Part shown: positions 18,866 to 59,127 of the stretch, piece by piece
How the letters are laid out: each line of letters opens with the position of its first letter
How positions within the stretch are numbered: the first letter of the stretch is position 1
NCBI GenBank assembly: GCA_003023725.1
Contig: PXYT01000017.1
Location: 1,488 to 64,375 of the forward strand
Direction: 5' to 3'
Length of the DNA stretch: 62,888 bases
From: Sulfobacillus benefaciens
Lineage (GTDB): Bacteria > Bacillota > Sulfobacillia > Sulfobacillales > Sulfobacillaceae
Notes under the pieces: model-generated
Databases searched by the model: none
Told to the model about the DNA's origin: nothing
What the model saw: the letters and a program-made list of their open reading frames with translations, nothing else
Made by a program: the position numbers and the translations under genes

Positions 18866-19771
18866 ATGCGCGTGAAATTTATTCTATATCTGGTCGGGGC
18901 CAACGTGTTGTGGGCCGGGAACTACTTGGCGGGACGGGTGCTGCGTCTCAGCATGGGACCCTTTACCCTCAATGCTATACGCTGGATTGTCTCAGCTCTG
19001 ATTCTTTTGGCCATTGCGTCTTATCGCGGTGAACACGTGCCATTGCGCCGTGAATGGAAAGCGTTTCTTCTGTTAGGATTTTTCGGAATGCTGTTATTCT
19101 CCAGTTTCACGTATTGGGGTTTGAGCATGGTTCCGGCGGGAGAGGCTGGCTTATTATCAGGATTTACTCCTCTAGCGGTACTGGTGGCTGGCTTTCTTAT
19201 CGCTCGCGACGCGGTGCGCATTTGGCAATGGCTGATGGTTGCAGTGTCGATTACGGGTGAAATTCTTTTGCTGGGAGGAGCAGCCCATGGCCCCGGCGGG
19301 AGTATTTTCGGCGCCCTGGTCCTAATATGTGCAGCGTTGGCGTGGGGCATTTATACGGCGCTGGGGCGCCGGTACCGGCACCGTTTTTCGCCGTTGGTTC
19401 TGACGGCGGGGGCGGCGGTATGGGGGGCCATTCCGTCGGCGGTGCTCGGAATAGGGAACATGGCGACACACTCCATGAAACTGACGGTGGGTAGTGCCCT
19501 GGCTTTGTTATATGTCAGTACGATGGCGTCGGTGGTCGCCTTTATGATGTGGAGTGCCGGGGTGAATAAATTGGGAAGCGGTACCGCGGCTCCGTATTTA
19601 AACCTGTTACCCGTGTTTACAGCATTGCTGGCGATTGTTCTGCTGCACGAATCGTTGAGTCTCTCCCAACTCGAAGGCGGTTTGATTGTAGTGGCGGGTG
19701 CTGTAGGGGCAGGATTTTCCAAACCCGTTCCCAATTCCCTTAAGAAGACTCCGACATCGATGCCTGAATAA
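18866..19771 (+). CDS. EamA/DMT family transporter
   Basis: 301 residues with ten membrane segments in two EamA repeats. The first begins with NVLWAGNYLAGRVLRLSMGPF and the second includes ALAWGIYTALGRRYR; both patterns are typical of the drug/metabolite transporter superfamily. Such proteins usually export amino acids or other metabolites. It begins immediately after the preceding small membrane gene. The last 32 nt overlap the convergent disulfide oxidoreductase gene. Confidence 0.9.
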   Translation: MRVKFILYLVGANVLWAGNYLAGRVLRLSMGPFTLNAIRWIVSALILLAIASYRGEHVPLRREWKAFLLLGFFGMLLFSSFTYWGLSMVPAGEAGLLSGFTPLAVLVAGFLIARDAVRIWQWLMVAVSITGEILLLGGAAHGPGGSIFGALVLICAALAWGIYTALGRRYRHRFSPLVLTAGAAVWGAIPSAVLGIGNMATHSMKLTVGSALALLYVSTMASVVAFMMWSAGVNKLGSGTAAPYLNLLPVFTALLAIVLLHESLSLSQLEGGLIVVAGAVGAGFSKPVPNSLKKTPTSMPE

Positions 19772-20378
19772 GATAGGCAGCAAAATGTTGCGGGGATACC
19801 GTGCCGGTAAAGACATAAGGGCCCGGCTCGCACCATGTGGTGGGGACTCCCATGACATGGTGCGTTTTTGCTATTTCGGGAAACTGGTCCGTTTGAATGA
19901 CGTGGACCGTGATCAGAGGCTGCTTCGCGGAAAAATTAATAGCCATGTTCACGACATGGGGACACCGGGTTCACGTGGGCGAGACGAATATTTTCGCGTG
20001 CACCGGATGATGAATTTCCTGTAATAATTGGCCCCAAGGCGTGGATTCGATTTCATATGGACGACTTGAGGCCACGATTGCGTCAATAAAGGCCCGGTAT
20101 TCCAAACCACTGGGTGTGCCAACGAAATGAACGCCAAATACTTGTCCGTCCCGGTTCCGAATTGTCAAGGTGGGATCTCCCCAAGAGCCGGCACCGGACC
20201 TGGCTAACTCACGGGAAATTTTCCCCGGCATTAGACTGACGGTATAATCAATTAAATCCTGGGCAGCTAGAGAGCCAGGAGTATCCCAGTGGTCGCTGTG
20301 AATGGTCAGCACAACCGGTGTGGATAATGCAGACAAGATTTCAATAACGTTTTGTTCTTGATCGGGACCCAAAATCAT
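19740..20378 (-). CDS. Glutaredoxin-like protein disulfide oxidoreductase, candidate selenoprotein
   Basis: Read through one in-frame TGA (19971-19973), this frame gives 212 residues, close to the roughly 220 of two-domain PDO-type oxidoreductases. The N-terminal thioredoxin fold (1-125) has no CxxC and holds DPTLTIRN and FVGTPSGLEY. The second domain reads KIFVSPT-(TGA)-TRCPHV, then GVPTTW with its cis-proline. Family members have a cysteine at the TGA position (PTCPYCP type), so TGA replaces the first cysteine of CxxC, giving U-T-R-C. The frame is open and conserved on both sides of the TGA. ATG 20378 follows AAGGAGA. The alternative is a nonsense mutation (TGC or TGT to TGA). The end overlaps EamA by 32 nt. 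Confidence 0.75.
19943..19959 (-). promoter_or_regulatory. Candidate bacterial SECIS hairpin after the TGA
   Basis: On the minus strand, 11 nt after the TGA, CCATGT pairs perfectly with ACATGG around the 5-nt loop CGTGA. The loop begins 18 nt after the TGA and has a G at its second position. Known bacterial SECIS elements lie just downstream of the UGA, inside the coding region, with a small apical loop that has an early G. The geometry fits that description. The stem is short, so chance cannot be excluded. Confidence 0.55.
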
Positions 20379-20668
20379 CGGTTTGTGATCTCCTTAGGTA
20401 GCTGACAGTCCGAGAGATGTCCTTGTGTATATATCCGGCTATTGGTGACGATAGCATAAAACGAGAATACCATATTTTCCGGCAAGCCTGGGACCTCCTG
20501 GCAAGAGAATGGGTTCTTTTGACCGCCTCTTGATTAGGCGGGAGGATTCCGGGTTATGAATGTTCCTCTTGACCTGAAGGAAGCCTCAAGTCCGAACTGC
20601 GGGCATCGGGCAATTTTTCAGAGCGACACCACAACCTGGCGCCGGAGGAGGCAGAAGTCATTGTCTCG

Positions 20669-21463
20669 TCAAGATTCGACTGTTTTTTGACACCATTTCT
20701 CCGTGACGTCGTCCAAAGGATAATAATGTGTCACCGTGAGGTCAGGGCGCAGAGGAACGGGAACGGAATTGGACCGGAAACGGAGAGCTGCCGGCTCTCC
20801 GTCTGCTGCGAATACCAAGATCTCCGACGTCGAGGGAATAGAGTCCTCCAAAATGACATGATATGTGGCCAAAAGAGTGTTCCATGACATCCCAATACGC
20901 CGGCTGATATTGTCTTTCAACCGGCTAAGCCAGGGATCGCCCACATAGGGTTGCCACTGAATGACGAGCCGATGCAGCATATGTCTGAGCAGTTCGTCGG
21001 ACCATCTTCCGGAGAAGAGGCCATCTGAGGCAAACAACTGTACGATAAGATTGGCTTCCAGACCTTTTAGCGACTCCCGGGGGATGCGAAGAAGGCCGCC
21101 CATTTCCCGGTTCCAGTCCCGGATAAACCATCCGATATCCAAAAGCAAGGCCGGCAAAGGGGAAAAACGATTGAGCCATGGATAGGTTTGGGGTAACTCC
21201 AACAGGGGTTCAACGTAAGGGCGGAATCCGGAGTCGTAGAGCCATTCATTCACTTCCCCGTTGATGACGGGTTCTTTGAGCGAACGGGCTATCTGAATGA
21301 TGAGATCGCGGGACAATTCTGACACTTGGGACGTTTCGACGCGGGACAGCTGTTTCTGAGATAGAGCGACTTGCTGGGCCAGACGAAGCTGGGACCAGCC
21401 CCGCCGCTCGCGGTAAAACCGGATACGCTCCCCTATCGCAGCGCGTTCATGTTCGGATTGAAT
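20669..21463 (-). CDS. XRE-family transcription regulator with C-terminal sensor-like domain
   Basis: 264 residues if read from an ATT codon at 21463. The first ~60 residues form a complete HTH_3 domain (IGERIRFYRERRGWSQ, then QQVALSQKQLSRVE), and the rest (about 70-264) is a helical and mixed domain of unknown fold. The HTH frame has no ATG, GTG, TTG or CTG between the upstream in-frame stop (TAG) and the domain. An AGGAGG site sits 8 nt before ATT 21463, so a non-standard start is the simplest reading. The first standard start (GTG 21325) would delete the DNA-binding domain. A frameshift is the alternative. Confidence 0.7.
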   Translation of the reverse strand: MQSEHERAAIGERIRFYRERRGWSQLRLAQQVALSQKQLSRVETSQVSELSRDLIIQIARSLKEPVINGEVNEWLYDSGFRPYVEPLLELPQTYPWLNRFSPLPALLLDIGWFIRDWNREMGGLLRIPRESLKGLEANLIVQLFASDGLFSGRWSDELLRHMLHRLVIQWQPYVGDPWLSRLKDNISRRIGMSWNTLLATYHVILEDSIPSTSEILVFAADGEPAALRFRSNSVPVPLRPDLTVTHYYPLDDVTEKWCQKTVES

Positions 21464-21603
21464 TTTCTGACCCTCCTCATCCTAAGAACTCTCATGCCAC
21501 AACATTTGGTGAACATCCCCGTAAAATGACAAATTGCTTCTCCCTGCATAATAGCGCAGCAAGCAGCCAAGCTAAATACTAAAAATCCTGAGGAGGTTGT
21601 GCC

Positions 21604-56818: not shown

Positions 56819-59127
56819 CGATCAGAATCCCGAATCTCGTCAAAACTCCGGCTTCCCTATCGGCGGGGCCGCGCATTGATGCCTGGGCTAAAGTCACAGG
56901 CCAGGCCCTCTATGCCGATGACATCCGGTGGCCCAACATGGCTTATGGTGTGCTCGTGGCAAGCCCTTATCCCCATGCCCGCATCGTCAAAGTCGATTTG
57001 GAACCGGCCCAGGCCATGCCGGGGGTGTTGGCCGCCTTGGCGGGACCAGGCAGTGTCGCCCCTTATGGTATCATGCCGTCCACCCAGGACGAACACGCGC
57101 TGGCCACGGATAAGGTCGTTTATTTGGGAGAGCCGGTAGCGGCTGTCGCAGCCACGACGCTTGCGGCCGCACGAGATGCCGCCGGGAAAATTGTCTGCGA
57201 ATATGAGGTGTTGAAGCCTGTGCTCCGGCCTGGGATTGAAAAGGAAAACCCGGGAATGGAGCCGGTTCATCCCGGCCGTCTCGAGGGCAACCTCTTCAAG
57301 GAGGTGGATCTCGAATTCGGTGACACGGCCAAGGGATTTCTCCATGCCTACACCACGGCGGAAGACACTTTTTTCTATCAAGGCAGCGCCCACGTCGCCA
57401 TGGAACCCCATGCAGCTTTGGGGTACTGGACGCCGGAAGGACGGGTGGAACTGATCACGGCGACCCAAACGCCGCACTATGTGCAACGGGAACTGGCGGT
57501 TGCGCTGGGCATCGAGAGTTACCGCATTCGTGTGCGAGCCAGTGTTGTCGGCGGGGGATTCGGAGGCAAAAGTGAACTCTTTCCCCATGAGATTGCGGCG
57601 GTCTTGTTGTCCCGGGCATGTGGACGGCCAGTGAAAATCACGTTGAGCCGAGAAGAGGTCTTTTATGCTCACCGGGGGCGGCATCCCGTATCCATGCGGG
57701 TGCGGACAGCATGGAATAAAGATGGGCGGATTCAGGCCATGGACTTTCGATCGGTGCTGGACGGGGGAGCCTACGCTTCATACGGTCTGGCCACGACTTA
57801 TTACACCGGCGCGCTGCAAACTGTGACCTACACCATTCCTGCCTACCACTTTCACGGAGAACGATGGTATACGAACAAACCGCCTTGCGGTCCCAAGCGG
57901 GGTCATGGCACAACTCAGCCGCGGGCCTTGGTGGAAGTTCATTTGGACCGGGTGGCCCGTGCTCTCGGGATTGATCCTATTGAGCTGCGCAGAAGGAATT
58001 TGACGCCTGCGTATTCCGTGACGATCAATCAGCTTGAAGTCGGCTCATCCGGTTTACAGGCCTGTCTGGATGCGGTGGAATCCTTAAGCAATTGGCACGC
58101 CCGGCGTTCTCGCCCAGATCCCGACCGGGGACTCGGGTTTGCTTGTTCCGCGTACCTCAGTGGAGCGGGATTGCCGATCTATTGGAATCCCTTGCCCCAC
58201 TCAGGGGTCAGAATGGCTGTGAATCGCGACGGCGGTGTTCAAGTTTTCTGCGGGTTGACGGATATCGGACAGGGAGCCGAGACCATGCTGGTGGTGCTGG
58301 TCGCGAAAGCGCTCGGCATTAAGGCGGACCGTATTCGCGTTTATACCGCGGACACGGGGACGACACCTGTGGATTTGGGATCCTATTCCAGCCGGGTGAG
58401 CATGATGGCGGGAAATGCGGTGCTTGAAGCCGCTCAACGCATGCGCCAAATCTTGAAAGACAGTGTGTGTGCCCATAAGGGCGTGGCTCAAAGCATGGTC
58501 GTCCAGGACGGCGAACTCTTTTACGTACAAGGGGACGAGCCAATCTCCTTTACGCAGGCGGTTTTGTGGGCCGAAGAAGATTTGGGGCCCTTGACGACTT
58601 TTGGAGCCTATACCCCACCTAAAGCCCTGGGCCGCTATAAAGGGGCGGGGGTTGGCCCTTCTCCCGCTTATTCGTTTACCGCCTGTGTCGCCGATGTCAG
58701 CGTAGACCGGGAAGACGGCCGGGTTACGGTGCATCACTTGTGGGTTGCCCATGATCTCGGCACTCCTTTACACGCGCCTTCCGTGGAAGGACAGATTCGG
58801 GGAGGAGTCGTGATGGGACTCGGAGAAGTGCTCATGGAACGTCAAGCCTTTAACCCCGATGGACGGCACCGGGGTCCTCACCTTTTGGGATATCCTATAC
58901 CGACGATTCGCGACGTTCCTCCTATAACCATTGCCGTGGTGGGGGAGCCGGACCCCAGAGGACCGATGGGAGCCAAGGAAGTGGGCCAAGGCCCGCTAAA
59001 TCCTGTAATTCCGGCAGTCATCAACGCCATTTCTGATGCGGTAGGCATCGATGTCAACGAGACGCCGGTGACTCCCGACAAAGTGCTGCGGGCACTGAAC
59101 CAGAAGTCGAGGAGAAAAGGACTATGA
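56815..59127 (+). CDS. hcrA: 4-Hydroxybenzoyl-CoA reductase alpha subunit (molybdopterin)
   Basis: 770 residues, matching HcrA. Motifs: GGGFGGKSELFPHE, DGGAYASYG, a GSYSSRVSMMAGNA block, and the catalytic Glu region GPMGAKEVGQGPLNPVIPA near the C terminus. The molybdenum-dependent reaction removes the para-hydroxyl from 4-hydroxybenzoyl-CoA, giving benzoyl-CoA. The specific identity rests mainly on the neighbouring beta subunit with its extra cluster loop. The gene overlaps both neighbours by 4 nt. Confidence 0.9.
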   Translation: MTIRIPNLVKTPASLSAGPRIDAWAKVTGQALYADDIRWPNMAYGVLVASPYPHARIVKVDLEPAQAMPGVLAALAGPGSVAPYGIMPSTQDEHALATDKVVYLGEPVAAVAATTLAAARDAAGKIVCEYEVLKPVLRPGIEKENPGMEPVHPGRLEGNLFKEVDLEFGDTAKGFLHAYTTAEDTFFYQGSAHVAMEPHAALGYWTPEGRVELITATQTPHYVQRELAVALGIESYRIRVRASVVGGGFGGKSELFPHEIAAVLLSRACGRPVKITLSREEVFYAHRGRHPVSMRVRTAWNKDGRIQAMDFRSVLDGGAYASYGLATTYYTGALQTVTYTIPAYHFHGERWYTNKPPCGPKRGHGTTQPRALVEVHLDRVARALGIDPIELRRRNLTPAYSVTINQLEVGSSGLQACLDAVESLSNWHARRSRPDPDRGLGFACSAYLSGAGLPIYWNPLPHSGVRMAVNRDGGVQVFCGLTDIGQGAETMLVVLVAKALGIKADRIRVYTADTGTTPVDLGSYSSRVSMMAGNAVLEAAQRMRQILKDSVCAHKGVAQSMVVQDGELFYVQGDEPISFTQAVLWAEEDLGPLTTFGAYTPPKALGRYKGAGVGPSPAYSFTACVADVSVDREDGRVTVHHLWVAHDLGTPLHAPSVEGQIRGGVVMGLGEVLMERQAFNPDGRHRGPHLLGYPIPTIRDVPPITIAVVGEPDPRGPMGAKEVGQGPLNPVIPAVINAISDAVGIDVNETPVTPDKVLRALNQKSRRKGL

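Follow-up and report, generated by a model that had tools for sequence, protein, structure and literature searches.

A gene of Sulfobacillus benefaciens for a 212-residue, PDO-like protein almost certainly encodes a selenoprotein, in which an in-frame TGA would be decoded as selenocysteine (Sec) at position 136 by SelB and Sec-tRNA(UCA), by way of a downstream hairpin. The gene lies on the minus strand of the window, as we call the whole 62,888-nucleotide stretch of DNA analysed here (Table 1). Reading of the sequence identified every feature of the frame given in a preliminary description: 135 sense codons, the TGA, 76 further codons and a TAA, with the internal TGA falling in the motif S-P-T-U-T-R-C. 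About 50 mechanically defined one-TGA frames of roughly comparable size occur within the window, and such a frame accompanied by a hairpin is, without conservation, weak evidence. Conservation sets the present candidate apart from chance: it is seen in the TGA column and in the covarying stem, and purifying selection acts 3′ of the TGA. A Pfam scan of 10 one-TGA frames found no further selenoproteins in the window; the only match, to hemerythrin, was discarded, as the ordinary ORF for this protein begins 3′ of the TGA.

Table 1. Coordinates of the features discussed in the text (window positions unless a contig is given).
Feature	Position	Strand	Basis or remark
EamA-family transporter, convergent, overlapping the 3′ end of the PDO gene	18866..19771	+	Pfam EamA 1.6e-42
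Putative selenoprotein gene, 212-aa PDO-like protein (Sec136)	19740..20378	-	ATG at 20378-20376, TAA at 19742-19740
Putative bacterial SECIS upper hairpin, CCAUGU-CGUGA-ACAUGG	19943..19959	-	Stem conservation, covariation, folding probability 0.95
TGT codon, resolving Cys139 of UxxC	19962..19964	-	Invariant Cys in alignment A2
TGA codon, predicted Sec, residue 136, first of UxxC	19971..19973	-	TGA 41, Cys 9 in 50 homologues
Shine-Dalgarno-like AAGGAG, ~12 nt 5′ of the ATG	20387..20393	-	Read from the sequence
XRE/MmyB-like regulator frame upstream of the PDO gene	20669..21481	-	Lacks a standard start codon 5′ of the HTH
Additional TGA PDO-like gene L054	G000:C90:31747-32166		
Additional TGA PDO-like gene L055	G000:C1:140314-140865		
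Additional TGA PDO-like gene L056	G000:C68:48894-49211		

The two halves of the frame had been proposed to form one PDO-type protein, and both a structural model and a domain match extending across the TGA agree with this. AlphaFold models the 212 residues with a mean pLDDT of 93 and a pTM of 0.90, predicting two thioredoxin-fold domains, the C-terminal one with Sec136-Thr-Arg-Cys139 at the opening of its first helix. Pfam Thioredoxin_3 (E 1e-10) covers residues 127-200 and thus spans the TGA. A cis-Pro-type residue, Pro179, is conserved and belongs to the invariant columns of alignment A2, together with G87, P89, G91, T135, Sec/Cys136 and C139. The closest solved structures are the Aquifex PDO (2ywm, 2ayt), the N-terminal domains of AhpF and the Pyrococcus PDO (1a8l). 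The proteins of Aquifex aeolicus and Pyrococcus furiosus match the fold from end to end (TM 0.86-0.89 on the query, 23-24% identity) but have Cys where the window protein would have Sec. Archaeal-type PDOs carry a CxxC in both domains; the window protein, in contrast, has a single active site, with no CxxC in residues 1-120 of its N-terminal domain. In this respect it resembles the N-terminal domain of AhpF (1zyn, 5h29; TM 0.82-0.85 on the query), a double thioredoxin fold with one active CxxC. The latter is however fused to a flavoprotein reductase, whereas the window protein stands alone and carries the predicted Sec.

The mechanism of Sec decoding is itself textbook knowledge. Applied to this gene, SelB with Sec-tRNA(UCA) would bind the hairpin located at nt 12-28 after the UGA and direct selenocysteine to position 136, and read-through would yield the 212-residue protein with its two thioredoxin-fold domains. 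If the protein works as thioredoxin and AhpF do, Sec136 would be the attacking selenolate in thiol-disulfide exchange and Cys139 would resolve the intermediate. Its probable role, as for PDO proteins and the N-terminal domain of AhpF, is to reduce disulfides in client proteins or in peroxiredoxins, of which the source genome has some of the Sec type.

Conservation of the TGA was assessed among related genomes. Matches were found in 65 of 101 genomes, many of them being frames with one internal TGA, and 50 homologues were read and aligned at the motif column. The TGA had been placed exactly at the family cysteine, the first of the CxxC, and the alignment bears this out: the column holds TGA in 41 homologues and Cys in the other nine. 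TGA codons elsewhere in the gene, which would have spoken against a Sec codon, are absent from the 50 homologues read. Within the genus, the window-type gene has the TGA in G006, G002 (three copies), G003 and G004 (56-72% identity) and a Cys codon in G001 and G005. The EamA transporter adjoins the PDO gene in G000 (the source genome) to G006 (loci L017-L023) and provides a synteny marker. Since the Cys genes lie beside the same transporter, they are orthologues of the Sec genes; at this single syntenic locus, five genomes (source included) have Sec and two have Cys. In a tree for which the motif residue was masked, the starred branches require the Sec/Cys label to change at least five times. 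The window-type clade stands apart from the clade with UP[YH]C motifs by a deep split (support 94/95), the deep shape of the tree being uncertain because branches are long. One pair of close proteins, L038 (G085) and L046 (G097), differs by Cys and TGA at the motif, and neither gene has the usual SECIS stem. This may reflect either a recent exchange or a SECIS of different shape.

The stem of the hairpin begins at nt 12 after the TGA, leaving 11 nt between, and pairs nt 12-17 with nt 23-28. The 5-nt loop, CGUGA, occupies nt 18-22, with G19 as its second base followed by U20. The published bSECIS model specifies a loop of 3-9 nt, a stem of 4-16 bp, a G at loop position 1 or 2, a distance of 16-37 nt from the UGA and a minimum free energy of -7.5 kcal/mol or lower (PMC13188914). 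The window hairpin agrees with this model in loop (5 nt), stem (6 bp), position of the G (second) and spacing (17 nt). Its energy, -6.0 kcal/mol for the upper hairpin (folding probability 0.95), is weaker than the threshold, and the region around it folds no better than shuffled sequences (z = +0.61). The gap, loop position and early G originally described for this element were confirmed. As folding of a single sequence is uninformative here, the stem was tested by its conservation. All six base pairs of the stem are present in 36 of 40 distinct TGA genes versus one of nine Cys genes (Fisher p ~9e-6), bearing in mind that the 40 TGA sequences share history and are not independent. About 30% of synonymous recodings of the window protein retain the full stem. 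Synonymous recoding of the whole set leads one to expect 4.8 complete stems in 40, with a maximum of 14 in 20,000 simulations. Stem cells are paired in 95.7% of cases, a figure that falls to 20-44% when the partner is slid by 1-3 nt. Covariation in the stem amounts to 0.498 as compared to 0.259 after shuffling, and changes on both sides are seen in four of the six pairs. From these sequence comparisons we take the hairpin 3′ of the TGA to be a bacterial SECIS element.

The window hairpin is the weakest among the Sec orthologues, six Sec relatives of the genus ranging from -7.6 to -13.2 kcal/mol (42-nt fold). This difference would fit a scheme in which the TGA is a Sec codon decoded inefficiently or in a selenium-dependent manner, so that the truncated 135-residue N-terminal domain would be an additional product serving a separate role. 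We consider this improbable: the N-terminal domain lacks a CxxC, evolves faster than the part 3′ of the TGA and gives no sign of an independent function.

Read-through into a full-length selenoprotein is further consistent with the pattern of substitutions 3′ of the TGA. In the closest pairs, dN in this portion is 0.02-0.17 and dS 0.27-0.64, giving a ratio of ~0.09-0.36; the values are 0.075 versus 0.37 against G006 and 0.143 versus 0.47 against G002. Purifying selection thus acts 3′ of the TGA, and a pseudogene would not show such a ratio. These data bear on the idea that the TGA is a nonsense mutation (TGC or TGT to TGA) or a sequencing error in a Cys gene, resulting in a pseudogene or a truncated protein. 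Nonsense changes of this type do occur nearby: the XRE/MmyB regulator upstream of the PDO gene has a TGA in G002 (L019, reverse frame ~504-1292) where the window has a Trp codon. For the PDO gene, however, the same TGA recurs in five genomes of the genus as well as in more distant relatives, the 76 codons following it are under purifying selection and the SECIS is conserved. The presence of the TGA in the orthologues of four further genomes of the genus indicates that it is not a sequencing error. A chance nonsense change at the redox codon, already deemed unlikely in the preliminary description, is contradicted by all three lines of evidence and appears extremely improbable.

Search of the source genome (4.56 Mb, 155 contigs) for selA, selB, selC and selD, the check initially called for, returned the complete set. 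SelA (556 bits), SelB (358 bits) and SelD (358 bits) all exceed their curated cut-offs, and selD has a Sec codon of its own, an internal TGA in the motif SGUGCK. The tRNA-Sec, with anticodon UCA, scores 68.9 bits and is reported by ARAGORN as tRNA-SeC(tca). Two copies of formate dehydrogenase FdhA (CNRTUHAPS) and peroxiredoxins with TPVU and TPGU motifs make it clear that the genome uses standard Sec sites. Nothing was found in favour of the TGA being read as an amino acid other than Sec, through a Trp code or general suppression, and we regard this as scarcely conceivable given that 10 of 19 sizeable window ORFs taken as genes end in TGA, that the codon aligns with Cys and not Trp, and that the full Sec machinery coexists with standard Sec sites in FdhA and SelD. 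Besides the window gene, the source genome has three PDO-like genes in which a TGA interrupts this motif (UPYC, UPHC and UPKC), and thus at least four Sec PDO-like genes altogether.

A selenoprotein family described as "homolog of AhpF N-terminal domain / Grx-like domain protein" (TIGR02187, UxxC) is already known from Carboxydothermus and Symbiobacterium (PMC1794560, PMC9312934, PMC13188914). The window protein shares with it the two thioredoxin-fold domains, the UxxC in the C-terminal domain, Sec in place of the first Cys and the existence of Cys forms in relatives. It differs by having UTRC rather than UP[YH]C, by falling in a separate deep clade and by its score against the NCBIfam model TIGR02187 "PDO_seleno_TRX" (3.7e-27; 95.1 bits, below the curated cut-off of 185), whereas two of the three other TGA PDO-like genes of the source genome have UP[YH]C. 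In the Sulfobacillus literature covered here, only formate dehydrogenase and peroxiredoxin are named as Sec proteins. What is new, then, is the window gene and a divergent, mostly Sec group in the Sulfobacillus lineage, perhaps with the status of a new subfamily. Members from the genus carry an additional Cys following the cis-proline (PTTWCEPGP). We are evenly divided on whether these genes form a PDO-like selenoprotein subfamily of their own, with a single UxxC, that diversified in Sulfobacillus-group acidophiles, serves one particular partner, differs from the canonical UP[YH]C paralogues of the same cells and exchanges Sec and Cys naturally at one syntenic position.

Gene-calling software that takes TGA for a stop would end the protein at residue 135 and miss the active site. 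The five Sec and two Cys genomes amount to a natural experiment within the genus; because these orthologues share one locus, the catalytic value of Sec in the PDO fold is directly testable. The Cys copies at the syntenic locus lack the full SECIS stem. The hosts are acidophiles, and the source genome has several Sec genes.

The XRE/MmyB regulator frame looks like a gene in decay. Being interrupted in G002 and absent from G006, it is not an essential partner of the PDO gene. Elsewhere in the window, ARAGORN reports a tRNA-Ile(tat) at 58310-58399 on the plus strand, inside a 770-aa ORF, which is probably a false call.
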